This document shows, one piece after another, positions 1 to 29,969 of a stretch of 53,366 bases of DNA. The position numbers were made by a program, and so were the translations under genes. The stretch is taken from positions 1 to 53,366 of IMG/VR virus record IMGVR_UViG_3300025582_000056, one strand, 5' to 3'. Under the pieces are notes generated by a model, which ran no database searches, was not told the origin of the DNA, and worked only from the letters and a program-made list of their open reading frames with translations. Positions within the stretch are counted from its first letter, which is position 1. Each line of letters starts with the position of its first letter. The DNA comes from a virus.

Positions 1-188
1 GGCACACGACCACACAACGTGTTGATGACCAGAGCTAAAATATGTTGTCCGGGGGAAACTTTCCATTGTTTCGGATCCCAAGTCACAGCGTGGTTAATGT
101 ACTCGACCAGTTTAATTTCGTTGCATAAAGAAAGTATGAGTCCCGTTGCTCCGGAACGAAATGTTTTAATAAGTGGTGCTTCTGCCAT
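1..188 (-). CDS. IS1634-type transposase, N-terminal part (cut by window edge)
   Basis: The leftward frame starts at ATG 188 and runs off the left edge, giving about 62 residues. It contains SPGQHILALVIN followed by a short C-G-R stretch. This matches the N-terminal DUF4277 region of IS1634 (IS4-superfamily) DDE transposases, where a similar SPG-(Q)-LALVLN-L-G pattern is usual. The product would move the insertion sequence by DNA cleavage and strand transfer. A G-rich stretch precedes the start. The catalytic domain lies outside the window, so intactness is unknown. The identification rests on a short N-terminal match. The 254 bases to the next gene are AT-rich and show nothing I can name. 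Confidence 0.6.
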   Translation of the reverse strand, partial: MAEAPLIKTFRSGATGLILSLCNEIKLVEYINHAVTWDPKQWKVSPGQHILALVINTLCGRV

Positions 189-442
189 CTGAAATACCCC
201 CAGCCAAATAATTGCTGAGTTTAGATTACCAGATCGGTCGAGCAAAGTCCAGCATTATCGTTTTTAAACAGTTTCATAAATAATATTTTCCATTTTCTTC
301 ATGCTTAAAATGGGATTAATAATATGTTTTGACGTCTTTATGATATGCAAGCAAAACACCAATACTCTTGACGGCATGTTTTGATTATATCAATAATCCA
401 GCCCTTTTGGATCGCAGCTATATAGCTTGATCAAAATCAACA

Positions 443-2599: not shown

Positions 2600-2813
2600 A
2601 ACATCCTCCATCATTAGTTACAGTCCAAGATTTTGTGTGATTTTCAGTTTTTGAAATTTGGTTTCGCATTATTGCAATTGCACGACTTTCCATTTATTTG
2701 CCATATTGTCTATTTTTCTATAAAACAACTTCACCAACATCAATAAGAAGATATCCTTACTTCTTCTGCTTACATGCATCTTTTAAAGAATATTTACGTC
2801 CCATAAATATGTG

Positions 2814-7451: not shown

Positions 7452-7647
7452 GATAAACTCCTCCATGAATTAGTTTGTAACTGCTTCCTAGTTCTTTAAT
7501 AGCTATTCATCGGGCGTTAAGTCCATAATGTCAGCAGAAGTGCAATCCAAGCATGTACATATAAAAATAACAAATGCACAAAAAATATTTAGAAAGTATT
7601 ATTTGACTTAATTTTCTTGTCGTTTAATTTCTCCTTTTTCAGCACAA

Positions 7648-7713
7648 ATTCTGCTTTACCAACCTAATAAGTGTCTCGGAACACCTTGGTAATAATGGTT
7701 GATTCAGCAGAAT
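7648..7713. other. Nested inverted repeats in the mod upstream region
   Basis: Within the 419-base gene-free stretch 7452-7870 three inverted repeats are nested: ATTCTGCT (7648-7655) with AGCAGAAT (7706-7713); TTACCAA (7656-7662) with TTGGTAA (7686-7692); GTGT (7671-7674) with ACAC (7681-7684) around a 6-nt loop. Together they would fold into one branched hairpin, as RNA or cruciform. I cannot match it to a known riboswitch. It lies about 200-260 bases upstream of mod. It might be a structured leader, a small RNA or a miniature mobile element. Confidence 0.4.
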
Positions 7714-7824
7714 GTACCTTTTTAATTTATTACTCTCATATAAATCCTTACTCTTTTTTATATATTCCACACGCTCCACATTCTTCCTTCATTTTCTGCA
7801 AAAATAACTATTAAATACAAAAAC

Positions 7825-7850
7825 AGAGCGTTTATATTGAAACGCTCTAG
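7825..7850 (-). terminator. Rho-independent terminator after the amidoligase-like gene
   Basis: Perfect 9-bp stem AGAGCGTTT (7825-7833) with AAACGCTCT (7840-7848) and a 6-nt loop. Read leftward it is followed by a T-rich run. It sits about 20 bases past the stop of the gene at 7871-8797. Confidence 0.75.
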
Positions 7851-7870
7851 CCGTACTGCACATACGCCTT

Positions 7871-8797
7871 TTATTCCTTGTCCGTCTTTTTCAGCATTAA
7901 TTCTTGATATACATCTAAAGCTCTGTCCAGTTCCTGACTCGCCCTGATAACTTCCGGATCAGTATAAGCTTTACCCTCTTTGATCCTGACTAAATCTGCA
8001 CGTAACTTTTCAATTTTTATTACTATTTCAGACCCAGCCGTTCTGAAAGCCCCATCCCCAGTCAGTTTACTTAACAGAATCTTACGATCCATTTTGTATT
8101 CACTACCCACAAAACCCAGCCGAATCAGCCATACCCTTAGAGAGTATTTATCATTGCCGGTTACCTTTTGTTTTGTGGAGGAGAACTTCTGCAATTTGGC
8201 CTGCTCATTTATCTTCTGGCAAAGTGTGATAAATGCGATAACCTCATCACAATCAAGGGTGTCTGGTAAAAATCCAAAGCTGACGGTCTGATTTACTATA
8301 TCAAAAGTTAAATCTCCTGTGCCCTCAATTTTACCGGTTTCTCTCGCATTGTTTATAACACCAGTAAAATCCTCTGTAGTATCTATGGGTACGTCATTGA
8401 CTGCAAAAACAAAGTCGGCAGTGAGTATATCATCCTGCCGACCGAGTGATTTTTTTAATAAATTTTGTTTACTCCAAATTAGATTGACCACATTACGAAG
8501 GCTAGCCCCGTTATGACCATCCATTGAGAAAGTTACCTTACTATCACCCTTTGCTAAAACTCTGGCGTTTTTTAAGGCATCCAGCACTTTTCGCAAGAGT
8601 TCAAGTTCTATTGTTGCCAATTCCGGTGTCGTTACTAAACAGTTTCGGTCAATCGTCCAGCTACCTACTTGATAACTGAAACTTGATGGTCCGGCATACT
8701 TGACCTGTTCACCGAGAGCCTCAGCAATAATCGCTGCTACCTGCTTTCGTCCAAGTCCAGTAACCCCGAATGAGTAAATGAAGGTGTCTTTTTTCAT
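7871..8797 (-). CDS. Amidoligase-like protein lacking catalytic residues ('virulence-related' family)
   Basis: 308-residue cytoplasmic protein of the family often labelled virulence-related in clostridial mobile elements; no function is established that I know of. By eye it is homologous over its length to the amidoligase at 40,368-41,291 and to the 247-residue protein at 42,110-42,853. Shared landmarks: an N-terminal VTGLGRKQVAA segment, VVNLIWSKQNLLKKSL in the middle, and a C-terminal YSLRVWLIRLGFVGSEYK block. The amidoligase residues G-x-E-x-E, H-V-H and E-L-R are replaced here by non-catalytic residues, so it is probably a pseudoenzyme. It has about 40 extra C-terminal residues with coiled-coil character. 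AAGGTAGGT precedes the start and a terminator follows the stop. It stands alone at the edge of the Patescibacteria-like block. Confidence 0.6.
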   Translation of the reverse strand: MKKDTFIYSFGVTGLGRKQVAAIIAEALGEQVKYAGPSSFSYQVGSWTIDRNCLVTTPELATIELELLRKVLDALKNARVLAKGDSKVTFSMDGHNGASLRNVVNLIWSKQNLLKKSLGRQDDILTADFVFAVNDVPIDTTEDFTGVINNARETGKIEGTGDLTFDIVNQTVSFGFLPDTLDCDEVIAFITLCQKINEQAKLQKFSSTKQKVTGNDKYSLRVWLIRLGFVGSEYKMDRKILLSKLTGDGAFRTAGSEIVIKIEKLRADLVRIKEGKAYTDPEVIRASQELDRALDVYQELMLKKTDKE

Positions 8798-9052
8798 GGC
8801 TTGTACCTACCTTTCCTTTTTGGTAGTGTACATTAACGCTCCGTACGGTCGGGAAGTCAAGCTGTTATTGTGTTTTTAATATTTCACATGATGCTTCTTG
8901 GTCATTCAAATTGATTAAACGTCATTACTACCACCTATTATGCATTTTGGAAACATACCAGAATATTATTCTCCCACTTGGTTTGTTACCCCAAACACAG
9001 TATTTACATTTATTCATAACCATGGTACTACTCATTGGCTAAACACTTATGC

Positions 9053-9064: not shown

Positions 9065-9598
9065 ATGAATTTTCGTCGTTTGAGTGGTTTTGCTCTTCCA
9101 ACTGTACTAATAGCATCTATGGTGATGCTAACTGTGCTATTAGCTGCTATCACCTCTACGGCTGCAATACGTGTGGCGTTGGTATCTCAATATTACAATC
9201 GACTTGCTCAAACTGCTGGCGATGCTGGTTCGGCCTATGCGAAAGCTTGTCTTACGGCTAATAATGGTGTACCAAGTTGGAGTGACTCTAAACCATTAAA
9301 ACCAGATACTAATTGTGCTGGTGATCCGCTAACTGATCCGCTAACGGGTTTACCAAGTTGTCCGGTCAGTCCAGCTACTGCTACTTGTCATGCAGTCCTA
9401 TTAGATAGTAATAGTAATATTTTTACCACATTTACAGTCGGTCTACCACAATTAGATTCTAACGGTTTAGCGGTTAATGTCGCGTCAGTTGGTTTAGCAA
9501 AGTTAATACGTTCATCCGATCTTGCCAATGGTGTTATTACTGCTTGGCGTCAATATTCTCAAAATAGTAATTTTACTATACAAATTATTAGCTTGTAG
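9065..9598 (+). CDS. Pilin-like protein with type IV class III-like N-terminus
   Basis: 177-residue protein starting with a short basic leader and then G-F-A-L-P-T-V-L and a roughly 22-residue hydrophobic helix, resembling PilX-type minor pilins or pseudopilins, though the usual E5 is not at its normal place. The mature part is rich in Ser, Thr, Asn and Ala and has at least four cysteines. The start at 9065 is chosen because the -10 box lies inside the longer frame that begins at TTG 9035. It would be inserted in the membrane and could join a type IV pilus; no pilus motor or peptidase gene is in the window. A decayed FGE fragment begins 3 bases past its stop. Confidence 0.6.
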   Translation: MNFRRLSGFALPTVLIASMVMLTVLLAAITSTAAIRVALVSQYYNRLAQTAGDAGSAYAKACLTANNGVPSWSDSKPLKPDTNCAGDPLTDPLTGLPSCPVSPATATCHAVLLDSNSNIFTTFTVGLPQLDSNGLAVNVASVGLAKLIRSSDLANGVITAWRQYSQNSNFTIQIISL

Positions 9599-9601
9599 TT
9601 G

Positions 9602-9883
9602 GTAACGCCTACGCTTCCTGGATTCAATGGCCAAGTGTCACAACTCATGGAGCTCTATTCCCCGACCCATTTCCTGGGACTACTGGCCTTCCTAATTCAA
9701 ATAGTTGGACTAGCACTAATGGTAATTGGGCAACTCCTTAGTAGCACCACTGACGGTGGAGTGCGTGCCTTTCGTCGTGGTGGCACTTGGTACGGTGGCG
9801 GCTATGCCGGGGTTCTGTCCCTGAATTTGGGCACTTTGCTCAGTGTTACGAGCCCGCTTCTCGGTTTCCGTGTCTCTCGGTGA
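9602..9883 (+). pseudogene. Decayed C-terminus of a second DGR-type target (FGE/C-lectin fold)
   Basis: One frame from 9602 reads WPSVTTHGALFPDP and then GTTGLPNSNSW before a stop near 9740. The neighbouring frame continues as STTDGGVRAFRRGGTWYGGG and ends GFRVSR at 9883. Both pieces align with the last ~90 residues of the DGR target at 24,720-25,985 (WTSITANGTLPINPSPTGTG ... GFLRGGLW ... GFRVSR). It is thus a single-frameshift remnant of a paralogous target lacking its N-terminal two thirds. The 13 bases at 9887-9899, three bases past the stop, are identical to those at the same place after the active target. It probably joined the pilin gene by deletion. Confidence 0.65.
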
Positions 9884-10534: not shown

Positions 10535-12433
10535 TCAATTTTTCAGACAGCGCACCGAAAACCCGATGGCCTTGTCCAAATCACCCCGGTACACAGTAGC
10601 GTTGGACGACTCCAACAATCGCACCGAACGCCCCGAAGCATAATAGAGCTGGGAGCTAGACCACAAGTAAGCATTCGATGACAGACTATAGAAAAACCCA
10701 TCGGCGGCGCGTTCGCCGGCAAACGGTATATTCAACCCAGAGGTGCCACTAGGTTTAAGTTTAGTACCCTGGTCAGTGCCTCGCCAGTTAAGATTAATGT
10801 CGGCTTGTGCCTGGGACATACCAAGTTGCATTTCTAGTATTTTCCACTCATTGTCGGATGGGATATGTGAGCCAGTTGGACAGATGCCTTGAGCACCCTG
10901 CGTAGTGACGTATTGCATAGCTTCGTCCCATTGATAAAGGCCACCGTAGGTTGTGCAGTTTGATTCAGTGTCGGCGTAACAGTATTTTTCTAGGATGGCG
11001 TTGTTAGTCTGGTTGGTGCCACCAGTTATTGTACCACCATTTATTCTGGTACCGACATTTAGATTGGCTTTGGCCCAGACTTGAGTGCCGATAGCTAGCC
11101 AATTGGCACCTAAAGTAAAGTTAGCCGTACATGACTTATTGGCATCCATGGTGATGGTATGACTAGCTACTCCGCTACAGCCAGTGCTGCCAGACCAACT
11201 GCTGAATACGTAAAGAGCGTTTGGGGTGGCTGTGATTGTGGGTGTGGAACCTGCATTGTACGTACCGCCAGCGTTAACTGTACCATTAGTGCCAGCGATG
11301 GTGGTTAGAGTGTATTGAGTAATAGGGCGACTATAGTTTGCACTCCCTGCACCACTCCAAGACCCATTTGCATTAGTATTAGTACACTTAGCCTGGACAG
11401 CTACGGTGTACATATGAGATTCTATTGCTGTAGTAAAGCCAATAGATAAAGCAGCAGGATCATCTGGTGTTTTCCAACCAGCGGTTTGGCTGACACTGTC
11501 TATGAGATAGTTATATTGGTAATTAACCACCGTACCGCTGGCACACCCAGTCGAAGCCCCCCAACTCCAGGTTGTAGTAGGCCCAACCGTGTTGGCAGTA
11601 ACCCCTGGAACTGTAGGTATGGCGGTAATAGGGTTTACATAGGCATTACTTACGGCTCCAACGGCGGCGCTACTAGCTGAAGTTGATGAACCGTCAGGGT
11701 AACAACGAGCTTGGGATTGGTATTCGTATTTAACGCCCTGGTTAGCAACCTGGGTAGCTGTATTGTTAGTAGACCAGGCTGTATAACCTGACCAAGAGCC
11801 ATCGTTAGTACGATTTCTAGTGCCATATTGGGTAACTGCACCTGCTGGGCATGTTGCTGATATGGTAGCTAAGACATTAGAACCATTCAATGTGACGGTT
11901 GTAGTTGGAGCAGCTGGTGTAGCGAGGGTTGGGATAGTATGGCGACTTACCAATGATATGGTATTGCCGGTACTTTCTTCTCGGTATTTGAGGGTGTATT
12001 CCAGACAGGCTGCAGTTTGGCCCGATGTGGTTAGGCATGAATCACTACTATCGCCTACATAGGCAAAGACGTCACTAGCTAGGATTGTAATGGATGGATT
12101 GCAACTTACGGTTGCTGGAGCAGCAAAGGAGTTAGTACCACGGGTACTGCTTGGCGTAGTTAAGTTGGTTGGGTCTACGCCTACCAGCGTGTTAGCTACG
12201 ACTGTACTGGCTGATTGAGACATAGCTGTACAACTTGGGTATTCGCCATGTTGGGAGTAGTACTTTTCTAATGCTTCAGCAATGATTGTTATTTTGGAAG
12301 AACGCTGAGAATCGCGGGTGGATGATTGGATGTTGGCGAAGGATACTATGCCAACTGTGGAGAGGATGCCGATGATGGTTATTACGACGAGGAGTTCTAT
12401 TATTGTGAAAGCGCTTTTGGTTGTTTTATTCAT
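10535..12433 (-). CDS. Prepilin-type protein with C-terminal FISUMP domain
   Basis: 632 residues. The N-terminus has a classical prepilin signal (AFTIIELLVVITIIGI) with Glu at position 5 after the cleavage site, placing it in type IV pilus or pseudopilus assembly. The middle is Ser/Thr/Asn-rich with fibronectin-like repeats and a bacterial-repeat segment (TTIAGTNGTVNAGGTYNAGS). The last ~180 residues match the Fibrobacter succinogenes major paralogous (FISUMP) domain: GTQVWAKANLNVGT, then CPTGSHIPSDNEW and GFSVRCLKN. TACAAT ends 7 bases before the ATG, so the mRNA is probably leaderless. Likely a surface adhesin on a pilus-like fibre. Confidence 0.75.
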   Translation of the reverse strand: MNKTTKSAFTIIELLVVITIIGILSTVGIVSFANIQSSTRDSQRSSKITIIAEALEKYYSQHGEYPSCTAMSQSASTVVANTLVGVDPTNLTTPSSTRGTNSFAAPATVSCNPSITILASDVFAYVGDSSDSCLTTSGQTAACLEYTLKYREESTGNTISLVSRHTIPTLATPAAPTTTVTLNGSNVLATISATCPAGAVTQYGTRNRTNDGSWSGYTAWSTNNTATQVANQGVKYEYQSQARCYPDGSSTSASSAAVGAVSNAYVNPITAIPTVPGVTANTVGPTTTWSWGASTGCASGTVVNYQYNYLIDSVSQTAGWKTPDDPAALSIGFTTAIESHMYTVAVQAKCTNTNANGSWSGAGSANYSRPITQYTLTTIAGTNGTVNAGGTYNAGSTPTITATPNALYVFSSWSGSTGCSGVASHTITMDANKSCTANFTLGANWLAIGTQVWAKANLNVGTRINGGTITGGTNQTNNAILEKYCYADTESNCTTYGGLYQWDEAMQYVTTQGAQGICPTGSHIPSDNEWKILEMQLGMSQAQADINLNWRGTDQGTKLKPSGTSGLNIPFAGERAADGFFYSLSSNAYLWSSSQLYYASGRSVRLLESSNATVYRGDLDKAIGFSVRCLKN

Positions 12434-13445: not shown

Positions 13446-15533
13446 TTAAGGCAATGGGATTACGGCGACAGGAATCAAGCTATTGACAGTTGAGTTGTTG
13501 CCAAGTTGGCCGTTACCGTTCCACCCCCAACAGTAGGCTTGATTATCGGAGGCGATGGCACAGGTTGCAGGGCCAGCCGAAATAGATGTGATCATTTTAC
13601 CGCTTAGTGCCCCAGTATTAATAACAGTTACAGGTATGAAACTATTAGTAGTTGAATTGTTACCAAGTCCACCATAATAATTATATCCCCAACAGTAAGC
13701 ACCGCTGTCGAAAGTAATGACACAAGTAGTATAATGGTCAGCTACAACAGATTTAATCGTCTTGCCATTTAGAACGCCAGCAGCATAAACAGCAACAGGT
13801 ATGGAGCTCTGGCTATCCGAGTTATTGCCGAGCGAACCAGCATAGTTCAGCCCCCAGCAATAGACTTGGTTATCAGAGGCTATAGCGCAAATATGAGCAG
13901 CGCCGGCTGTGATAGCTTTTATGGTCTTGCCGCTCAGGACGCCGGCAGTATAAACAGCGACGGGCACTAAATCAGTATTAGTATGGTTATCACCGGATTG
14001 ACCAAAAGAGCCATCGCCCCAGCAATAAGCTTGATTATCGGAAGCAATAGCGCAAGTATTAGATCCAGCTGTGATAGCTTTTATGGTCTTGCCGCTCAGG
14101 ACGCCAGTAGTATTAACGGCGACAGGAACCATACTCTGGTTAGTTGAATTGTTGCCAAGTTGGCCAGAACTATTAAGCCCCCAACAGTAGACTTGGTCGT
14201 CAGAGGCAATAACACAGGTATGATTAGTGCCGACTGAAATTGATTTAACCGTCTTACCATTTAGGACACCATTAGTATAAACAGCAACAGGTATAGAACT
14301 ATTAGTAGTTGAGTTATTACCAAGTTCGCCGTCGCCATTATAGCCCCAACAATAAGCTTGATCATCAGAAGCAATGGCACAAGTAACCATATTACCGACT
14401 GAAATCTGCTTTATTGTCTTGCCACTCAGGACACCGGCGGTATAAACAGCAACAGGTATAGAACTATTAGTAGTTGAGTTATTACCAAGTTCGCCCTCGC
14501 CATTATGACCCCAACAATAGGCTTGGTTATCGGAGGCAACGGCACAGGTGCGAATACTATCACCCGTAATCTGAGTCCACGTCCTTACACGATAATAATT
14601 TGCTGACCCTGATTCGCTCCAAGTGCTAGTTGCATTAGTGTTATAACACTGGGCTTGGGCAGCCACTGTATATGTTTGCCCTCCAGTTGAAGTTGTAAAA
14701 GCAACCGAAAGATTAGTCCCATTTGCTACCCAACCAGAATCATAGCCTGATGGCGTAATAGTGTAACGGTATTGGTAACGAGCTGTATTGCCAGGACAAG
14801 ATGCCGCACCCCACGACCAAGTTGTTGTGGCACCCACTGTTGCAGCCGTAACGGTCGGAGCTACTGGTGCGTCAATGGTTGTAGTAGCTGTAGCTGTGGT
14901 TGACCAGTTGCTGGTTCCGTTGGCGTCAGTTGCTTGTACTCGATAATAATATGGAGTTCCTTGAGCTAAGCCACTTGATACAAATGTTGAGCCTGCTTGC
15001 GTAGCGATAGTTGTCGCACTCGTGAATGATGAATTGCTACCACGTTGTAGCGTATAGCTGGTTGCACCGGCAGATGCATTCCATGATACGTTAATCGAAG
15101 AACTGGATGCTGCTGTGGCGATTAGATTAGTTGGAATAGCAGTAGCTATAGAGATTGAACGAGAAGCACATGTACCTAGTTGAGCACCCTGGCTGCCAAT
15201 GTTTTGGTCAATGTAATAATGAATGGTAGCGTTTTGTGAGCTAGAGGCATCAATACAGTAGACTACACCGTCACTACTACCACCAGTTAAGATGGTGTTT
15301 TTACTTGGTTTGAAAGTTGTTAGATTGGAGACTAAGGTTGGATATGAGTTATTGAATGTACGAGCACTTTCCATAGCACTAGCTACACCATTGAGGTCAC
15401 TCTTTAGTTGAGCTGAAATGATTGAGTTTTGCCAGTTAGGATAACTAACGATGACAATGCTAGCTAGGATACCAATGACTGAGATGGCAACTATTAGCTC
15501 TACGAGGGTGAAGCCGGGTATTTTTCTTCTCAT
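13446..15533 (-). CDS. Prepilin-type protein with fibronectin III and seven RCC1-like repeats
   Basis: About 695 residues. The N-terminus is a prepilin signal (GFTLVELIVAISVIGI) with Glu5. A fibronectin type III domain follows (WNASAGATSYTLQRG ... YYYRVQATDANG), then a second linker domain. The C-terminal half has seven repeats, each with Y-C-W-G, a G-x-L-G-N-N turn and a G-K-x-I/V-K segment, matching RCC1 blades; seven blades would close one beta-propeller. It would display a propeller at a pilus or pseudopilus tip for binding. The start at 15,533 is chosen over an upstream ATG because the -10 box (15,546-15,541) lies 7 bases before it. The small TPR-like gene follows in the same transcript. 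Confidence 0.8.
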   Translation of the reverse strand: MRRKIPGFTLVELIVAISVIGILASIVIVSYPNWQNSIISAQLKSDLNGVASAMESARTFNNSYPTLVSNLTTFKPSKNTILTGGSSDGVVYCIDASSSQNATIHYYIDQNIGSQGAQLGTCASRSISIATAIPTNLIATAASSSSINVSWNASAGATSYTLQRGSNSSFTSATTIATQAGSTFVSSGLAQGTPYYYRVQATDANGTSNWSTTATATTTIDAPVAPTVTAATVGATTTWSWGAASCPGNTARYQYRYTITPSGYDSGWVANGTNLSVAFTTSTGGQTYTVAAQAQCYNTNATSTWSESGSANYYRVRTWTQITGDSIRTCAVASDNQAYCWGHNGEGELGNNSTTNSSIPVAVYTAGVLSGKTIKQISVGNMVTCAIASDDQAYCWGYNGDGELGNNSTTNSSIPVAVYTNGVLNGKTVKSISVGTNHTCVIASDDQVYCWGLNSSGQLGNNSTNQSMVPVAVNTTGVLSGKTIKAITAGSNTCAIASDNQAYCWGDGSFGQSGDNHTNTDLVPVAVYTAGVLSGKTIKAITAGAAHICAIASDNQVYCWGLNYAGSLGNNSDSQSSIPVAVYAAGVLNGKTIKSVVADHYTTCVITFDSGAYCWGYNYYGGLGNNSTTNSFIPVTVINTGALSGKMITSISAGPATCAIASDNQAYCWGWNGNGQLGNNSTVNSLIPVAVIPLP

Positions 15534-15546
15534 GAGTTTAATTGTA
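15534..15546 (-). promoter_or_regulatory. Leaderless-type promoter of the RCC1 pilin
   Basis: Leftward TGTTACAAT (TACAAT at 15,546-15,541) precedes the ATG at 15,533 by 7 bases, with no ribosome site between. The 350 bases beyond it (15,547-15,897) show no gene I trust. Confidence 0.55.
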
Positions 15547-15897
15547 ACACATATATCCATAAACATTATAATTAAACATTATAATTAATAGCAATATTTG
15601 CTCATTATGTTATGGACGCATACATATCTTTCTTCTTTATTACAATGAATGATTATTGTTAAGATTTACTCTTAGGAATGATTCAAAGAAGTTATTTGTC
15701 TTGTCATTAACTATGAATCTTTTTTCGATATTTGCTGGAATACTATTCACTTTATTTTGTTCGTTATATATTCCAATCATTATAAAATGATGGCATCGTA
15801 TGGTGTACTTGAATGAAAAACTACCTGGAACGCATCCACTAGACCCAGGCAAGCGTAAGTATTATTTAATAATTTCAAGAGGGGCTATGATTAGTGC

Positions 15898-22321: not shown

Positions 22322-22570
22322 CTACTTCCAACGCCAAGCAATACCTGAATGAAGTCCACCATAGAGTTGAATAAACTCTTTCTGGATACTACCATCTTCA
22401 CTTATCTCCAAGCGATTTTCATCCACCGGCTCACCCGGACGCTCAATCCGTGAAAGCTTGTCATACGCCCAAATTATAGTCGGCTTCTCCCCTTTGAAGA
22501 CGACTTTCTGCCTGTAAGTCAACGTCGGGGTTTCAAACGATTGCCCTGTGTCACATTGCTGACGAGTTCC
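22322..22570 (-). pseudogene. Truncated orphan protein, related to the fragment at 26,104
   Basis: The leftward frame encodes TYRQKVVFKGEKPTIIWAYD and ends LYGGLHSGIAWRWK. Upstream residues SFETPTL are in frame, but no good start or ribosome site is seen, so the N-terminus is probably lost. It aligns with the decayed fragment at 26,104-26,440 (TYNQEIVFIGQKPRVIWSYN ... LHGGMFSGVAWEW). I do not recognise the family. The two relatives lie in the same orientation on either side of the DGR block. Confidence 0.5.
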
Positions 22571-22648: not shown

Positions 22649-22827
22649 TATTTGTTTAAGCTTAGTATCACAATCTAAAAAGGCCGTACGCGACTTAACC
22701 GTACAGCCTGAGTCGTATTCGTCTCACTATCCAAAGATAGTAAAGACTGGTTATAAGTGATCGGATACTAATCGGCACAGATCTATCAATAATTAAATTA
22801 ATAGATATCGGGCCACTTTTCATTATC

Positions 22828-22954
22828 CCGGGAGACACGGAATCCGATGTTGCTGTTCGTGTTGCTGGGGCCATTGTTCAAATTCAACGTCAGAACGCCG
22901 TCGTTGCCGCCATTGTTCCAATTCCCGCCGCGGATGAAGCCATACAAGCCCGTC
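22828..22954 (-). repeat. DGR template repeat (TR)
   Basis: 127 bases that match the variable repeat at 24,723-24,849 without gaps. On the leftward strand the TR would encode TGLYGFIRGGNWNNGGNDG and onward to GFRVSR, rich in AAC/AAT codons, as DGR templates are. All 16 differences from the variable repeat fall on adenines of this strand (9 A-to-G, 5 A-to-C, 2 A-to-T). It is read leftward, away from the reverse transcriptase gene. It is the RNA template for mutagenic copying. Confidence 0.95.
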
Positions 22955-22975
22955 TATAATCACATAACCATAAGT

Positions 22976-22983
22976 ATTATACT
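22976..22983. promoter_or_regulatory. Overlapping divergent -10 boxes between TR and RT
   Basis: Rightward TATACT (22,978-22,983) ends 7 bases before the GTG of the RT. Leftward TATAAT (22,981-22,976) overlaps it and would start an RNA just before the TR. The core AGTATTATACT is palindromic around its centre. One short site could thus drive both RT mRNA and TR RNA. Confidence 0.45.
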
Positions 22984-22990
22984 ATAGGCA

Positions 22991-24106
22991 GTGATTAAAC
23001 TAAAAGATATATTCAGTTCAGTTACCTCACTGGACACGCTGTTAATAGCACATAGACGAGCGTTAAAAGGCAAACGTTATAATTACTATGCGACTGGCTT
23101 TGATTATAACCTCATCAGCCACTTAATTAAATTACAAGCCGAATTACGTGATCATGAATATAACCCAGGCGGTTATCGTAAAAAGATCATAGTCGAGCCA
23201 AAGGTTCGATGCATCGAAGCCCCAGCCTATCGAGATCGCATAGTCCATCATGCCTTGCATTATTTTTTAAATCCATTTTACGAGCGATTTTTCATTAGCG
23301 ATTCATACGCTTGTCGACAGGGTCGTGGTATACATCATGCGACCGCCAGGGTGCAACAATTCCTTCGCCACGGAGGATCAGATCTATACGTTTGTCAAAT
23401 CGACGTATCCAAATATTATGCATCTGTTAACCATAATCGCCTAATAGAGTTGCTCCAAGGAAAAATCGACGATAAACCATTAATGGAACTGTTATGTAAA
23501 ATAATCGAATCAACCGACAGCGGTACCGAACATGATTCATTATTCGCCCCGGATTCACATTATTTCACCAAGGGTCGTCGAGGCATCCCGATTGGTAATC
23601 TGACATCTCAGTTATTCGCCAATATTTATCTGCACGAAGCTGATATGTACGCCAAACAAACCCTTAAAATTCGTCATTACGTTCGGTATATGGATGACAT
23701 ACTCTTTTTTCATCACGACAAAACTCAGTTGCACGAGTGGAAACAGAGTATGCAAAATTTTCTTTACGATAATCTATATCTAACCATTAACCCGCACAAG
23801 ATCAGACTGTACCCTGCCAAACAAGGTGTTTCATTCGTTGGTTATGTTATATACCCATATTACCTGCGTTTACGTGGTAGCAGCGTTCGACGTTTTCAAA
23901 AACGTTATCGCAAACAGTTACAGGCTTTGTCGTCATGGAAAATTGATATCGACGTCGTAGACAAATCATTCGCATCATGGAAAGCCCACGCATCACACGC
24001 CAGCAGTAAACACCTGATCGAAAGAATGGAAATATTACAAAAAGATTGCCTGGCAAACAGACGGCCAATTCAAATGTCGCTCTTTGAATTATTTGGTGAT
24101 TTATAA
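22991..24106 (+). CDS. DGR reverse transcriptase
   Basis: 371-residue group-II-intron-like reverse transcriptase. Seen: the palm motif YVCQIDVSKYYASVNH, the DGR-typical IPIGNLTSQLFANIYL (motif 4, S-Q), and the catalytic YMDD at residues 233-236. Length is normal for DGR RTs, which lack maturase and endonuclease domains. It copies TR RNA to cDNA with errors at adenines, with Avd as partner. The start is GTG 22,991: it has no ribosome site but lies 7 bases after TATACT, like the leaderless genes nearby. Its end overlaps the convergent avd gene by 37 bases. Confidence 0.95.
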   Translation: MIKLKDIFSSVTSLDTLLIAHRRALKGKRYNYYATGFDYNLISHLIKLQAELRDHEYNPGGYRKKIIVEPKVRCIEAPAYRDRIVHHALHYFLNPFYERFFISDSYACRQGRGIHHATARVQQFLRHGGSDLYVCQIDVSKYYASVNHNRLIELLQGKIDDKPLMELLCKIIESTDSGTEHDSLFAPDSHYFTKGRRGIPIGNLTSQLFANIYLHEADMYAKQTLKIRHYVRYMDDILFFHHDKTQLHEWKQSMQNFLYDNLYLTINPHKIRLYPAKQGVSFVGYVIYPYYLRLRGSSVRRFQKRYRKQLQALSSWKIDIDVVDKSFASWKAHASHASSKHLIERMEILQKDCLANRRPIQMSLFELFGDL

Positions 24107-24450
24107 CGCTTGGCCCAACCGCCACGCATTTTACCAACTTCATCAATTTGAGATATGGCATAGCCTAGAGATTCGGATTTGAGGAAATGCAACTCATACG
24201 CAACCCTCAGCAAACTGCGTAATACCTCCAATTCAACATTCAGTTGATCTAGACTTTTAAGTGTACCCCCCCCCCCCAGCTTGACATTAGCGTTATTTGC
24301 TTGGATAATATATCGCAAACTTAACAATGCACTATTTTCAATTTGCTGCCCCAACACAAAACGCTGCTTTTTGGGAAAAGTGTTTACTTTTTCAAACAAC
24401 CACAAAACCACTTCGAGCATTTTGGTATAGATGATAAATTCTTTTTTCGT
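24070..24450 (-). CDS. avd: Avd, DGR accessory variability determinant
   Basis: Four-helix-bundle protein of the S23/Avd family: FPKKQRFVLGQQIENSALLS, then LEVLRSLLRVAYELHFL, then ISQIDEVGKMRGGW, in the order seen in Avd. It forms a basic barrel that binds RT and TR RNA and is needed for mutagenic retrohoming. The first ATG is at 24,420, but the conserved N-terminal helix begins upstream (EFIIYT). AAGGAG at 24,461-24,456 fits a non-AUG start (ACG 24,450 or ATT 24,453), so I place the start near 24,450. A 12-G tract lies in the loop after residue ~60. It converges with and overlaps the RT gene, whereas avd is usually upstream and co-directional. Confidence 0.85.
   Translation of the reverse strand, partial: TKKEFIIYTKMLEVVLWLFEKVNTFPKKQRFVLGQQIENSALLSLRYIIQANNANVKLGGGGTLKSLDQLNVELEVLRSLLRVAYELHFLKSESLGYAISQIDEVGKMRGGWAKRYKSPNNSKSDI
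24266..24277. repeat. 12-base C/G homopolymer inside avd
   Basis: Twelve consecutive C on the + strand encode four glycines in Avd (KLGGGGTL). Such tracts slip during replication; a one-base change would shift the Avd frame. It is also a place where sequencing errors occur. Confidence 0.8.
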
Positions 24451-24469
24451 AATATCTCCTTTTTTATTA

Positions 24470-24632
24470 ACTCGACTTACGCAAAACCTCGCACTCTTCT
24501 GGCGATACTAGTACCAGTTCAGAATACATTTTCTCTGGTGGAGATGATCCCGTAGGATCATCAACAACAGAAAAATGGTTTATGGACGGTGATAGTGCGT
24601 CAGAGGGTGTAGGGATTTTGCGTAAGTCGAGT
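24470..24632. mobile_element. MITE-like element with 17-bp terminal inverted repeats
   Basis: ACTCGACTTACGCAAAA (24,470-24,486) is repeated inverted as TTTTGCGTAAGTCGAGT (24,616-24,632), perfect over 17 bp, with 129 bases between. The inside has a perfect 8-bp hairpin GATGATCC-CGTA-GGATCATC (24,545-24,564) and no credible gene. It lies between avd and the variable repeat. It may be a non-autonomous transposon or a structured RNA or DNA element of the DGR. Confidence 0.5.
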
Positions 24633-24639
24633 AAATCGC

Positions 24640-24658
24640 AGGGCGGACAAGCCGCCCT
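24640..24658. other. GC-rich hairpin downstream of the variable repeat
   Basis: 7-bp stem AGGGCGG (24,640-24,646) with CCGCCCT (24,652-24,658), 5-nt loop, about 65 bases past the 3' end of the variable repeat. No T-run follows on the leftward strand, so it is a poor terminator. Known DGRs use a GC-rich cruciform close after the variable repeat to aid retrohoming; this could be its counterpart, though it is farther away. Confidence 0.4.
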
Positions 24659-24680
24659 AAATCTCAAGACTAAAGACCAT

Positions 24681-24709
24681 AAGAGTCAAGAGTCCAAGAG
24701 TTAAGAGCT
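24681..24709. repeat. Short tandem repeat AAGAG(T/C)(C/T)
   Basis: Four 7-8-base units starting AAGAG lie head to tail between the GC hairpin and the target's stop codon, beside the 13-bp flank shared with the decayed target. Confidence 0.5.
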
Positions 24710-24719
24710 AAGGTCTGTA

Positions 24720-25985
24720 TCACCGGGAGACACGGAATCCGACGGCGCTGCTCGTGTTGCTGGGGCCATAGGGCAAATTCAACGCCAGAACGCCGCCGCC
24801 GCCGCCACTGCTCCAAAGCCCGCCGCGGAGGAAGCCATACAAGCCCGTCGTGTCATTATTACTATAAATCTGTCCTATACCTTTACCACTATTCCAAGTA
24901 CTAGAAGCACTAGCTCCGGATAAACCAGTACCGGTAGGAGATGGGTTGATCGGTAGAGTGCCATTTGCCGTTATTGATGTCCATTCACGCCAGCCCCAAC
25001 CAGCACCTGAGACACCAGGTTGACCACCAGCGACAGTCCCAGATGTCCATTGCCAGACGTTACCAGCAAAGTCCCAAATGGTCTCGTTGTTTGTTAGTTT
25101 TAGGGTTCGTCTTTGGTTCCCACCAGTATTAGTTTCACCAGCATAGCCGTTGGCATCGTTTGAATCAGGGGCAAGAGCGCCAGTTGGAGTATTGTCGTTG
25201 TGTCCTGAATAGATATAATTTGTGCCAACAGTGCCACCATACCAGTTACTGCCTACAGATAAGACGTTTTGGGCAATCGTCATCCATTCAGCCTCGGTAA
25301 TTAAGTGACAACCTGTGCAGCCAGCTACGTTGGGGCTATTGGCTATGGCAGTGGTTTGGGAGATGCTAACCCAAGGCAGAACGCTTGGTACGGATATTGG
25401 GACGTTGGTTGTTCCTACTTGACTGGCAGCATACTTCATAGTACAGAAACCAGCTTGACCGTATGTAGCGGATCCAGGTACTGGTATAAAGTTAGTTGGA
25501 CAATTGGTCGGTTGAGCTAGAGCTACTGGGGAAGAATTATCGTTAATACCATAGGCTGTGCCGTTGGTGTTGGTGTCAGTTAATGCAAAAGTTGTACCAC
25601 CATTGGTAGTATAAATTAATGTATTACTGCTACTTGATTTGAGACAATAGGTATTATCTACATTGGGAAGTGTAGGGCAGTTACTACCATTCATAGTAAT
25701 TGGATAAGAGCCATATAGCTGGTTATACATTTTTAGTTGTGTAGATGCAGTGGTTAGATCAGATTGTAGTACGGAGGCAGTAGCACGAGAGGTTATGCCT
25801 AGGTAGGATACTATCGTTATGGTTGCTAGGATGGCTATTACTACTATGACTACGAGGAGTTCGACGATGGTAAAGGCGGGGGAAGAAGTTACTTGATGGC
25901 CCGACTGCCGGTGCCGGTTCGGAAAAATATTATCTAATCTTCTTAGTGCTTTATCGGATATTTGTGTTGAAATATACTTAGTCAT
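24720..25985 (-). CDS. DGR target: prepilin-type protein with variable FGE/C-lectin domain
   Basis: 421 residues. A leader of about 35 residues precedes a prepilin signal (AFTIVELLVVIVVIAI) with Glu5, so the protein should be built into a type IV pilus-like fibre. A stalk region follows, then a C-terminal formylglycine-generating-enzyme-like fold (AEWMTIAQNVLSVGSNW; WDFAGNVWQWTSG; GFRVSR), a C-type-lectin scaffold common in DGR targets. The last 42 residues are the variable repeat, with exposed positions in GFLRGGLWSSGGGGG and LNLPYGPSNTSSAV. TACTCT (25,997-25,992) lies 6 bases before the ATG, consistent with a leaderless start. Likely a surface receptor-binding protein of changing specificity. 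Confidence 0.9.
   Translation of the reverse strand: MTKYISTQISDKALRRLDNIFPNRHRQSGHQVTSSPAFTIVELLVVIVVIAILATITIVSYLGITSRATASVLQSDLTTASTQLKMYNQLYGSYPITMNGSNCPTLPNVDNTYCLKSSSSNTLIYTTNGGTTFALTDTNTNGTAYGINDNSSPVALAQPTNCPTNFIPVPGSATYGQAGFCTMKYAASQVGTTNVPISVPSVLPWVSISQTTAIANSPNVAGCTGCHLITEAEWMTIAQNVLSVGSNWYGGTVGTNYIYSGHNDNTPTGALAPDSNDANGYAGETNTGGNQRRTLKLTNNETIWDFAGNVWQWTSGTVAGGQPGVSGAGWGWREWTSITANGTLPINPSPTGTGLSGASASSTWNSGKGIGQIYSNNDTTGLYGFLRGGLWSSGGGGGVLALNLPYGPSNTSSAVGFRVSR
24723..24849 (-). repeat. DGR variable repeat (VR)
   Basis: The last 127 bases of the target gene, ending at its final Arg codon. Sixteen bases differ from the template at 22,828-22,954, all at template adenines, changing 12 codons (AAT to CTT, AAC to GGC, AAC to CCC and others). 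The last ~18 bases before the stop are identical to the template and would act as the initiation-of-homology segment. Confidence 0.95.
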
Positions 25986-26103: not shown

Positions 26104-26440
26104 TCACCACTCCCAAGCCACTCCTGAAAACATCCCACCGTGTAAATGCGTAAATGATATTTGTATTGTACTTCCACCATCCTTGAACGCGAGTGGTTTT
26201 TGTTCTTCCTGTCTGCCTGGGCGCTCCAACAACGAAAGCATATTATATGACCAGATAACTCTAGGCTTCTGTCCGATAAATACAATTTCTTGGTTGTATG
26301 TAAAAGTTGGAATTGCAAACGAACGTGTTATTTCTATTGCGATAGCTTTTTTACCATTCTTACCTTGTTCCGGCGACAACTCTATAAAGCTTATCTTGTG
26401 CGTTTGCCCACGTTTGAGCGGTTTGGGAAAGCTTTTGCAT
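26104..26440 (-). pseudogene. Frameshifted orphan gene, relative of 22,322-22,570
   Basis: One frame from ATG 26,440 reads LSQTAQTWANAQDKLYRVVA then GTR and stops. The adjacent frame continues KNGKKAIAIEITRSFAIPTF and ends LHGGMFSGVAWEW at 26,104. The second part matches the truncated protein at 22,322. A single-base shift at about 26,362 separates the halves. It lies just past the stop of the STAND gene. Family and function unknown. Confidence 0.5.
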
Positions 26441-26471: not shown

Positions 26472-29400
26472 TTACTCTTCTGAATTCGAATCGGCTAGCA
26501 TAGTCTCGGAAATGTTAGCTTTTTCAAGATACACGTTTGCCATGTCATTATCGTCAATGCTCCGATATGCTGAGGCAAGATTTTTGTATATTGACAGATT
26601 TTTGGGGTGGTTTTCAGGGAATTTCAAAAGGCGGATGTTCAACGCCTTTTGGTAAAACTCTATAGCCGCGTCATACTGTCCCTTTCCAAGGTATACGTCA
26701 GCAAAGTTGCAATATGAAGTGGCAATATGCGGATGAGAATCGTCAAATTTCTTCCGGCGGATATCAAACGCCATATTGAAATAAACCATCGCCTCGTCAA
26801 AATCACCTTTATCTCTGTAAACGTATCCCTTGTTATCATAGGAAGCAGTGGATGAAGGCAATCCCGCCCTACCATTTTGCCTGTAAATTTCAATTGCCTT
26901 ATCTATCCAAACCAAGGCGTCATCAAATTGCTTTTTCTTCCGGCAGACGCTGCACAGCCCCCTGTAGATGGCGGCGGTTCTCGGCTTGTTTTCCATGTTC
27001 AGATTCACCCTTATCTGCAGTGCCTTTTGATAATATTCCAAGGTGACGTCAAGCTCGTTTTTCGACTGATAGACGCTGCCGATGTTGTAATAGGCGATTG
27101 ACATTGATGAATGGTTTGCCGGCAGGACTTCCTTTTTGATTTTCAAAGATCTAAAATAATAATCCAGCGCATTGTCAAAATATCCTTTAGTTGAGTATAT
27201 CCATGCGATGTTATGCAAAGACTGGGCGATAGATCTGTGGTTAGGAGGCAGTGACAGTTGTCTGAACTCAAGCGACTTTAAAAAATTGGGCAAAGAATTG
27301 TCATATTCACCAAGCGCGTTATAATACATCCCTAAGTAATTATATGTTAGAGCAAGGTCGGAGAGTTTCTCCGGAAAATGTTCCTGCTGCACCTTAAGCG
27401 CAGCTAGGTGATATTTAAGCGCATCTGGATAGGAGGCTAACTTTCTACTGGAAGAGCCTAGTAAATTCAAGGTGCGGGCGAGATTGCGATAATCGGGATT
27501 CTCCGCTTTTTCAAAGAGATTTAGCGCTTTTAGGTAACACTCCATCGCTTTTTTGTTGTCGGCCAATTCCGAATAACTAAGACCGATGTGCCTGTGCAGT
27601 CTGGCTAGTTCGTTTTGATCGCTGAGGTTTTCCGGATTTTCCTTTTCGTAAATAGAGAGCGCTTCCAGCAGGCATTCCTGCGATTCATAAAACATCGCAA
27701 GCAGTCTGTAGATTCTTCCAAAGTTATATAGGATTCTACCGGTCAGCAATACCTTGTCGGGAATCCTTTTCAGGACACTTGTGCACAGTCTGATGGCCTG
27801 ATTGAGTGTAATCCAGTCATTGCCTTCATCCAGTGGTGACAAATATCCGTTTAGCGACGTCAGATATTGTTCGCAACTCACACTGTTCGGTTTCAAAGCG
27901 TTTGCAAGGACATCCGAAACGACCGGGTGCAATGAAGCGACGTCGGTTTTTCGGTCGAGGATGATCCAGCCGGTGCCCACCAGCGCATCAAAGTCATTAA
28001 AATCGTCAAGACGAATCCAGTCGCCAAAGGTCTCAGCCTTGATGCCGTCATGCGGAGTCAATGACATATTCATGAGGATATATTTTTCTCTTTCGGATAG
28101 CTGGGAGATGTCAAAGATCGATTCAATGTGTGCATACATCAGGGCGGAGTGGATTTCGCCATCCTTTTCAAGGGTGACATACGCGGGGATGTCCGTTTTT
28201 AGATTCGCCGTGAGCTTATCCAGCAGTGTTTTTGGAGACACCCTCCTGCCGGTGAACAGCGTCTTGGCGATGAGCACGAGCGTGAGGGTGTGGCCGCTGA
28301 TGATATCGAGTATCCCGGCGATCGCCCGCTGATCGTCTTCGGACATTTCTTTTGTGTAATACTTAAAGAAAAGCTCATTCTGATATACGCCTTCAAGCTC
28401 GCCCAATTCGAGACAGCCGTCATGGATGACCCGCGAAGTAAAGATGATGTGATACTTGCCCGACCGCACGTCGCCGAATTTCTTATCAAAAACAGCACTC
28501 ACATACTTCCCCGAATCATCTTTTGTGCGGTTGAAGTTATCGATAACGATCAAAGTATCTTCGTTGTAAGTTTTCAGGAGTTTCATCTTTGCGTTATAAT
28601 GAAATTCCAAGTTTTCATCCTCAGCCTCATAATTGAGGACAGGCAAGGAAAGGCCGATTGTTGAAAGAAGTGAGCCGTCGTAGCTTAAAAAGCATACGGT
28701 GTTATACTTTTCCTTGTTTCTGTGGATGTATTCCTTCACAAGCTCCGTTTTTCCGATCCCGCCCATACCGGAGACCATCGCCCAACCGGATTTTTGCAGC
28801 CGATCGCCGATTTCCCTAATCTTATCCTCCCGGTCTGTAAAGGTTTCCAGTGCGGACGGCACGCTGTATATGAGGCACATCTGCAGCCCGTTGGAATTTT
28901 GCAAAGCCTCCAGGTTTTCCCTCATTAGTCGGTTTGTCTCGTCGAGTTTGCCGGTAATGGTAGGGCCGGCGGGCTGGGTAATCTCCAGCAGGGTTTGCAG
29001 ATCATTCTGCAGCTCCCGAATATCTTGGTAGCGGCTCGATGTGGCAGCCCGTAGGGTTTTGGAAAATATTTTTTTGACGAGTGCTCCACTCTCGCCGGTC
29101 AATATCGAAGTATGGATGGAACTGTCCATCAAATGGAGCTTATTTCGCTGAATGGCATATAGATCGGCCTCGTTCAGTATCTTACCAGTAATAAGCCAGA
29201 ACAGCACCGCCCCCATCGCATAGATGTCGGTAGTCTTGCTGAAAGATCTCGTAAGCCATTGCTCCTGTTCCGGCGGAGCCCAGCCCTCGGAATTCACTCT
29301 ATAAGGGATTTTCTTTTCAAGAATGTCATCCAGCAGCATAACCGTATCGAAGTCGAATAAAGCGACACGGCGTGTTTCGCCTGCGTCTTTTTTGAATAAA

Positions 29401-29969
29401 AAGATGTTTTCAGGTTTTATGTCGAGATACAGATAGATGCCGTCCTTATGCTCGTGGAACGGCCTGACAGCGTTGCACAAGGACAGTATGATCTGAGCAA
29501 TTTCAAAAACACCTGAGACATCGTCCCGGATATTGTCGAGCGAATCGCCGTTGGTTGGCTCCAAAACGGTATAAACGGTGTTGTTGGCCTCGCTGCATGT
29601 CGGGCGGGGCAGCATGTGGTTCGTGTCGTTTTCATAGAAGGCAACATGGTTGAGATATCCGTTCAGAAAATGGCTTCTGAGGCTTTCGAAGCTTTTCTGG
29701 GCATCCATGCCGTCAACAAACAAGTGTACGCCGTCACGACGGATTTTTCGGGTTAGAGAACAGGGATAGAATTCCTTGATAATGGCTACACGGCAAAGCT
29801 GCCGACTCCCGCCGCAGAAGGCGGCCTCCGGCCTCTCGGCCCTATAGACGATGCAGCTGCCGCCGTACCCGATCACGCGTCTGATGGTGTATGTGATAGC
29901 CTGCCCGTCTACAATGAATTCCAGTTGTTCGCCTTCCGCAAGAGGAATCCTCTTTTCTTCTGCCACCAT
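26472..29969 (-). CDS. STAND protein: kinase-like domain, NB-ARC NTPase, TPR array
   Basis: 1,165 residues in three parts. Residues ~1-300 resemble a Ser/Thr kinase: glycine loop IGYGGSCIVY, a possible lysine in IIKEF, catalytic loop YLYLDIKPENIFLF and metal loop DFD instead of DFG, then an APEQ motif. Residues ~370-700 are an NB-ARC/AAA-type switch: Walker A GMGGIGKTE and Walker B LIVIDNF. Residues ~720-1,150 hold about ten TPRs (LGEYDNSLPNFLKSLEFRQL is one). Such sensors bind a ligand by repeats, oligomerise and activate the N-terminal effector; relatives act in regulation or anti-phage defence. The altered kinase motifs leave activity uncertain. GAAGGGATGAGG precedes the ATG. Confidence 0.75.
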   Translation of the reverse strand: MVAEEKRIPLAEGEQLEFIVDGQAITYTIRRVIGYGGSCIVYRAERPEAAFCGGSRQLCRVAIIKEFYPCSLTRKIRRDGVHLFVDGMDAQKSFESLRSHFLNGYLNHVAFYENDTNHMLPRPTCSEANNTVYTVLEPTNGDSLDNIRDDVSGVFEIAQIILSLCNAVRPFHEHKDGIYLYLDIKPENIFLFKKDAGETRRVALFDFDTVMLLDDILEKKIPYRVNSEGWAPPEQEQWLTRSFSKTTDIYAMGAVLFWLITGKILNEADLYAIQRNKLHLMDSSIHTSILTGESGALVKKIFSKTLRAATSSRYQDIRELQNDLQTLLEITQPAGPTITGKLDETNRLMRENLEALQNSNGLQMCLIYSVPSALETFTDREDKIREIGDRLQKSGWAMVSGMGGIGKTELVKEYIHRNKEKYNTVCFLSYDGSLLSTIGLSLPVLNYEAEDENLEFHYNAKMKLLKTYNEDTLIVIDNFNRTKDDSGKYVSAVFDKKFGDVRSGKYHIIFTSRVIHDGCLELGELEGVYQNELFFKYYTKEMSEDDQRAIAGILDIISGHTLTLVLIAKTLFTGRRVSPKTLLDKLTANLKTDIPAYVTLEKDGEIHSALMYAHIESIFDISQLSEREKYILMNMSLTPHDGIKAETFGDWIRLDDFNDFDALVGTGWIILDRKTDVASLHPVVSDVLANALKPNSVSCEQYLTSLNGYLSPLDEGNDWITLNQAIRLCTSVLKRIPDKVLLTGRILYNFGRIYRLLAMFYESQECLLEALSIYEKENPENLSDQNELARLHRHIGLSYSELADNKKAMECYLKALNLFEKAENPDYRNLARTLNLLGSSSRKLASYPDALKYHLAALKVQQEHFPEKLSDLALTYNYLGMYYNALGEYDNSLPNFLKSLEFRQLSLPPNHRSIAQSLHNIAWIYSTKGYFDNALDYYFRSLKIKKEVLPANHSSMSIAYYNIGSVYQSKNELDVTLEYYQKALQIRVNLNMENKPRTAAIYRGLCSVCRKKKQFDDALVWIDKAIEIYRQNGRAGLPSSTASYDNKGYVYRDKGDFDEAMVYFNMAFDIRRKKFDDSHPHIATSYCNFADVYLGKGQYDAAIEFYQKALNIRLLKFPENHPKNLSIYKNLASAYRSIDDNDMANVYLEKANISETMLADSNSEE

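Follow-up and report, generated by a model that had tools for sequence, protein, structure and literature searches.

The diversity-generating retroelement (DGR) of BPP-1, arranged mtd-avd-TR-brt, combines adenine mutagenesis between a template repeat (TR) and a variable repeat (VR) with an Avd protein, a reverse transcriptase (RT) of the SQ type, and a C-terminal VR within a C-type-lectin-type domain. DGRs are frequent in bacteria of the Candidate Phyla Radiation (CPR) (Paul et al. 2017, as reported in PMC10907252), and cassettes with an inverted RT gene form group G5 (PMC6642488). DGR targets with DUF1566 have been linked to putative pilin structures (PMC6642488), and Bacteroides phages encode hypervariable proteins that resemble pilin tips (PMC6199706). 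The cultured Saccharibacterium TM7x requires type IV pili, and also PilX2, a modular minor pilin, to bind its host fully (PMC12206443), and modular pilins with grafted adhesive modules exist, e.g., PilB of S. sanguinis (PMC8179133). Here, a DGR is described in IMG/VR record IMGVR_UViG_3300025582_000056, whose full 53,366 nucleotides of Saccharibacteria-type DNA are referred to as the window. This DGR probably diversifies the final 42 codons of a modular type IV prepilin, an adhesin that would be displayed on a pilus and used in host binding. The cassette consists of the following features:

22828–22954, minus strand: TR, a 127-nucleotide repeat with 30 adenines and 10 AAY codons.
24723–24849, minus strand: VR, the repeat matching the TR, forming the last 42 codons of the target.
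24720–25985, minus strand: target, a 421-residue prepilin with an FGE/C-type-lectin-like C-terminal domain and a mature start at Phe38.
24723–25514, minus strand: candidate ligand domain (target residues 158–421), with FGE-sulfatase matches in the family and a profile match to 5vf4 (TaqVP).
24070–24420, minus strand: Avd accessory protein (bAvd, 3.6e-19; PHROG Avd, 1.6e-21).
22991–24106, plus strand: DGR RT (RVT_1, 7e-22; PHROG RT, 2.6e-115), opposed to the TR.

Over their 127 positions, the two direct repeats show 16 mismatches when read on the minus strand, all of which fall at TR adenines (nine changed to G, five to C, and two to T). These coordinates and counts agree exactly with those in an initial annotation of the window made from the sequence alone. 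Fourteen of the 30 TR adenines are kept in the VR and none of the 97 other bases is altered, indicating that the VR was rewritten recently; the probability that 16 random mismatches would all hit the 30 adenines is 1.8e-12. The template is built for adenine mutagenesis, with AAY making up 10 of its 42 codons and no codon in which substitution of an adenine creates a stop. The RT contains the SQ motif (IGNLTSQ) and YMDD, and RT, Avd, and target are all intact, in agreement with the earlier assignment of a complete DGR. That parts list overlooked the strand arrangement, however: the RT is encoded on the plus strand, while TR, Avd, and target lie on the minus strand. A scan of viral contigs with the RT protein found no relative, and a profile scan returned many RTs at 35–41%.

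The prepilin site of the target reads A/FTIVE (A/FTIVELLVVIVVIAILA), a class III signal followed by a hydrophobic helix. Residue −1 is Ala in the window copy and the usual Gly in its relatives. Taken alone, the window target scores 18.5 for N_methyl and 18.6 for FGE-sulfatase, short of the respective Pfam cut-offs of 21.2 and 23.3 bits. Across the target family, FGE-sulfatase is matched by all six members (best, 3.2e-8) and N_methyl by five; the exception is a C-terminal fragment. The stretch from residue 38 to about 130 matches type IV pilins of solved structure (PilA, GspG, and geopilin), and the family profile matches 5vf4 (E = 4.9e-5), identified in the fold search as the Thermus aquaticus DGR variable protein TaqVP. 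Two structure models of the target (pLDDT, the predicted local distance difference test score, of 35.7 and 44.6) were of too low quality to locate the varied residues. A fold search with the second model put TaqVP at the top with a non-significant E of 0.18 and was not used as proof. The proposal of a prepilin with a variable C-terminal domain is supported. The VR lies at the C terminus of the target, and a C-type-lectin-type fold is favored by the FGE-sulfatase matches in all family members and by the TaqVP profile match. The prepilin signal itself stands on its class III motif, the N_methyl matches of the family, and the pilin structures, with the reservation that Ala replaces Gly at −1.

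RTs related to that of the window were sought in 393 Saccharimonadia genomes. Seven, with identities of 57–70%, were found in G337 (twice), G054, G229, G001, G078, and G073, and together with the window RT they form an eight-row clade with support of 100/100. Targets in this clade are prepilins wherever the target N terminus is present on the contig, and the RT opposes the TR wherever a TR was found (L002 was judged by inspection); the layout of prepilin target, Avd, and opposed RT is therefore conserved. In the seven TR/VR pairs pooled from the clade, 99 of 199 adenines are changed, compared with 2 of 695 other bases. The assembly of one target VR (UBA6209; L002, 2998–2999) has collapsed to NN, as expected from disagreeing reads or from merging of TR and VR. 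A second target copy on another contig of G337 matches the same TR, with changes at 15 of 28 adenines and 1 of 96 other bases, suggesting that a single TR can act on multiple targets; alternatively, the copy may be a strain variant from a mixed bin.

Neither half of this layout is unique to the clade. The idea that the opposed RT is confined to it was rejected, as nine other Saccharimonadia DGRs with other targets have the same arrangement, and so was the idea that only this clade targets prepilins. A second RT clade (L045, L049, and L052) also has prepilin targets, with RT and TR on the same strand in the resolved cases, and prepilins thus seem to have been recruited as DGR targets more than once. 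Separately, two IMG/VR contigs (L106 and L108) encode 1,090-residue proteins whose listed translations look alike except for the last 40 residues; they would represent a further family of DGR targets with naturally occurring VR alleles.

Two of the relatives, G078 and G073, share a 20.2-kb segment that is identical except for 13 substitutions and a 4-nucleotide change in the length of a CT repeat at the start (5' end) of the pilin gene, equal to two CT units. All 13 substitutions lie within the VR, 12 of them at TR adenines and the remaining one beside a changed adenine. The natural variation confined to adenines that the initial annotation had suggested looking for is thereby seen, in these sister elements. 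The VR, almost the sole part to differ, appears from this comparison to have been rewritten after a recent transfer. The segment starts at the 3' end of a tRNA-Leu gene, with anticodon GAG in one genome and CAG in the other; a GCGCACCA-type repeat recurs at its far end, and short CGCACCA-type repeats occur at both ends. The flanking DNA gave no alignment across the 95 × 135 kb compared; because the two insertion sites differ, this shows mobility rather than distance between the host genomes. The first half of the segment encodes, in order, a serine recombinase, Replic_Relax, two proteins of unknown function, the pilin target, Avd, and the RT, followed by the TR. Next come an HxlR regulator, a type IV secretion system (T4SS) pilin/VirB6-like protein, a PrgI-like protein, a VirB4/TraG-type ATPase, a CHAP protein, a TrwB-like coupling protein, and a phospholipase D (PLD)-type nuclease, the last assigned by eye. 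The same DNA at two tRNA-Leu sites, the end repeats, the serine recombinase, and the T4SS genes identify the segment as an integrative mobile element.

G054 has the same gene order next to tRNA-Gln, and in G229 the recombinase, Replic_Relax, and pilin DGR lie at tRNA-Glu; the 20 kb read around them contained no T4SS genes. The window contains serine recombinase, Replic_Relax, and TrwB-like genes at 36–46 kb. No element ends were identified around the window DGR, for which no dedicated search was made, and membership of the DGR and these genes in one element is not claimed; a plasmid search with the window Replic_Relax protein returned nothing. Because the cassette of the relatives resides on integrated mobile elements, both the element and the cell may benefit from it.

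Alignment of the TR strand of six relatives, the window among them, showed strong conservation over ~150 nucleotides 3' of the TR. A covariance model (R1) was built on these six rows. The features of this region in the window are:

22976–22981, minus strand: TATAAT-like box, a putative −10 element of a TR promoter, ~22 nucleotides 5' of the TR, with TATA invariant in 6/6.
22677–22832, minus strand: conserved, folded 3' portion of the TR RNA (139 bits with R1, for which the window is itself a training row).
22682–22708, minus strand: 9-bp terminator-like hairpin with a nearly invariant GTTMAGTC loop, followed in the window by a T-run.

The 3' consensus contains 43 pairs, 20 of which show two-sided compensatory changes. 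In the hairpin, all 54 cells across the six sequences are paired and 7 of the 9 pairs covary, a covariation score reached by none of 500 shuffles. A consensus scan called no promoter on the minus strand, and an Rfam search at gathering level gave no match. Run over the 393 genomes, R1 detected the stretch in the DGR clade and at three further places: G267 (5e-27), next to a target-like VR on a contig where no RT was seen; G086, with two weak matches; and the second DGR of G229, with a partial match. In G267 (contig C30; L314/L309), the target-like VR runs directly into the 3' domain of the TR RNA, an arrangement that is either a product of recombination between TR and VR or an assembly collapse. 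The conserved, covarying fold and its terminator-like hairpin suggest that the TR most likely gives rise to a short, independently ended RNA, a putative transcript forming a unit of its own.

Several genes of these systems contain simple-sequence tracts, one of which lies within the window avd gene:

24266–24277, minus strand: G12 tract within avd, which is in frame at this length.

This is the only G/C run of at least eight in the window, where ~0.001 would be expected, and a change of +1 or −1 would cut Avd to 54–56 residues. A tract occupies the same place in L034 (G10, in frame) and G229 (G9, out of frame); since the TR is undetectable in G229 as well, its frameshift may reflect decay. CT repeats precede the prepilin motif in G054 (CT13), G229 (CT10), G078 (CT14), and G073 (CT12). 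In other Saccharimonadia DGRs, CT or G tracts occur inside the RT (L042, L044, L051, L053, L073, and L080) or at the start of the target (L049, L050, and L052). Those in the RTs of L051 (G144; CT14 at 6887) and L053 (G057; CT23 at 6851), both in frame as sequenced, lie between the start codon and the conserved part of these two RTs, which are related to each other. In a set of 18 genomes, 10 have exactly one CT8 tract, located in or just before a DGR gene in 8 of the 10, an enrichment that is biased because the set was chosen via DGRs and several members for an already seen tract. The excess is smaller in a wider genome sample, in which three genomes are each rich in tracts; of the remaining 15 tracts, 4 are in DGR targets and two of these are copies of one element. 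Collectively, the tracts suggest phase variation of pilin genes and DGR machinery, with slippage seen directly only as the CT14/CT12 difference between the sister elements. A separate array of five prepilins in an element-like locus of G315 (contig C10; L294, 4311–11867), mostly with a CT tract ahead of GFTIVELL, has no VR. It lies between a PLD-type gene and a Replic_Relax-like gene with a serine recombinase at tRNA-Glu. Its pilins were considered as DGR targets and rejected, having no match to the TR of the G315 DGR.

These features can be assembled into a mechanism. RNA of the TR would be made from the minus strand as its own short transcript, ending in the folded 3' domain and terminator-like hairpin. 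If the steps follow BPP-1, RT and Avd would copy this RNA while misreading adenines, and the mutated cDNA would replace the VR, an outcome reflected in the adenine-only differences and in the sister elements. As in pilin biology generally, processing of the prepilin would be followed by its assembly into a type IV pilus or pseudopilus, and the filament would display the variable lectin-like domain outside the cell. The domain most likely binds host-cell surfaces, given that Saccharibacteria live on other bacteria and bind them via type IV pili. On–off switching of the system probably arises from the tracts in the target, avd, or RT. With the cassette as cargo of tRNA-integrated elements, some with T4SS genes, a new recipient would gain a ready-made, re-tunable adhesin. 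It is conceivable, as a tentative extension, that Saccharibacteria share a mobile host-recognition module, i.e., an integrative conjugative-type element with a phase-variable, DGR-hypermutated pilin adhesin and its own TR RNA unit. If so, an epibiont could gain and re-tune its host range through lateral transfer.

By analogy, the ligand most likely resides on host bacteria, and the main rival places it on recipient cells of the element. The variable pilin would then serve the element by contacting recipients for conjugation, as the adhesin that Patescibacteria T4SSs seem to lack. In the integrated elements of G078, G073, and G054, the cassette has the Replic_Relax gene on one side and T4SS genes on the other, which favors this, as does a survey of Patescibacteria in which most T4SS clusters were without relaxases and no adhesins were detected (PMC12102498). 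In G229, however, the pilin adjoins a recombinase and Replic_Relax with T4SS genes unseen in the 20 kb read, and the type IV pili of TM7x bind host bacteria (PMC12206443), making this role somewhat unlikely; the two roles are in any case mutually compatible. Slippage tracts together with hypermutation are typical of escape systems. Their co-occurrence here could point to antigenic variation, by which the varied domain evades phages, predators, or host defenses that recognize the pilus. The changes are limited to a lectin-like domain, a type that DGRs employ in binding, and this explanation is accordingly considered unlikely.

An inactive or decayed window DGR would fit the frameshifted remnant of a second target at about 9600–9883 and the missing TR of G229. 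It is improbable, given an RT, Avd, target, TR RNA fold, and hairpin that are all intact and a VR that, lacking any non-adenine change, was recently rewritten. That the DGR is carried by a phage and acts on a target resembling a tail fibre would suit the deposition of the window in IMG/VR. The prepilin signal, Pfam scans of 29 open reading frames (ORFs) that gave conjugation-type genes and zero virion proteins, and the location of the nearest RTs in Saccharimonadia genomes make this highly improbable. Several observations weigh against the preferred explanation, a DGR-diversified pilin adhesin, which was itself built from sequence comparison. The C-type-lectin fold is drawn from sequence profiles, the models having pLDDT values of 36 and 45, and residue −1 of the window prepilin is Ala. 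Mobility, shown only in G078 and G073, is presumed for G054 and G229 from the adjacency of tRNA and recombinase. Decay does occur, as the undetectable TR and frameshifted avd of G229 show. Several relatives have an ATG after the CT tract but ahead of the prepilin motif, and the effect of the tract is uncertain there.

Other parts of the window contain further features. The remnant at 9591–9883 (plus strand) has a VR-like end (9754–9880), which matches non-adenine TR bases at 72% with the window TR and 82% with that of L034, and a frameshifted upstream part; it looks like a decayed paralogous target. The gene at 10535–12433 (minus strand) encodes a prepilin with a Fib_succ_major domain. Its C terminus is ~62% identical to targets (L045 and L049) from the second clade with pilin targets and could hold the VR of a DGR outside the window. 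Another prepilin, at 13446–15566 (minus strand), has fn3 and an RCC1-type β-propeller, an architecture like that of TM7x PilX2, which is described with a β-propeller and acts in host binding (PMC12206443). The cassette is flanked by two small related ORFs, at 22322–22522 and 26104–26379 (both minus strand; WAYDKLSRIERPG and WSYNMLSLLERPG), and adjoins a gene at 26472–29969 (minus strand) for an 1,165-residue protein combining a kinase, a P-loop NTPase, and a tetratricopeptide repeat (TPR) part, a domain set that resembles STAND-type conflict proteins. The outer regions, 1–8800 and 26100–53366, differ in gene flavor from 9–26 kb and encode type III restriction, Spo0E-like, amidoligase, TrwB-like, Replic_Relax, and amidase proteins and two large serine recombinases; the best plasmid match of the window recombinase is from Peptoclostridium (58%). 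The window may be a composite mobile region or a chimeric contig.

DGRs with pilin-like targets are already known, and the new aspect is a mobile, possibly phase-variable version. A Legionella DGR also lies on a mobile island, so carriage of DGRs by such elements would not by itself be new. New here are a TR RNA whose 3' fold covaries and includes a terminator-like hairpin, and tracts of simple sequence within DGR genes. A literature search, which the CPR survey of Paul et al. 2017 lay outside, found no paper joining DGRs with a prepilin, and a search of titles and abstracts found no description of slippage tracts in DGR genes. The question addressed is how ultrasmall epibionts recognize and switch hosts, for which these data name a mobile gene whose variable residues are marked by its template, which allows metagenomes to be mined for alleles and these to be tested on hosts. 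The G078/G073 pair offers a natural experiment on DGR activity after transfer, and the slippage tracts are a possible switch gating mutagenesis. A role is also suggested for Patescibacteria T4SS clusters thought to be without relaxases or adhesins, to which these elements may be a partial answer.

Compared with described systems, the window cassette shares with BPP-1 the mutagenesis, accessory protein, RT type, and position of the VR set out above. It differs in having a pilin in place of a tail fibre as its target, an RT opposed to the TR, and a TR that looks like a unit of its own with a terminator-like hairpin. TaqVP is likewise a DGR variable protein, and the stretch matched in it is without a pilin module. 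The Bacteroides proteins resemble the pilin tip of Bacteroides ovatus (PMC6199706), whereas the window target is a prepilin with an N-methylation motif. PilB of S. sanguinis and PilX2 of N. lyticus TM7x join a pilin module to an adhesive domain, as the window target does, and PilX2 acts in host binding in a Saccharibacterium; no DGR has been described for either. The DGRs of CPR bacteria come from the same host radiation, and here the target is a type IV prepilin. The RT strand is reversed relative to the canonical cassette as in group G5 (PMC6642488), but here the inversion goes with a single RT clade that has pilin targets and in which the fold of the TR RNA is conserved.

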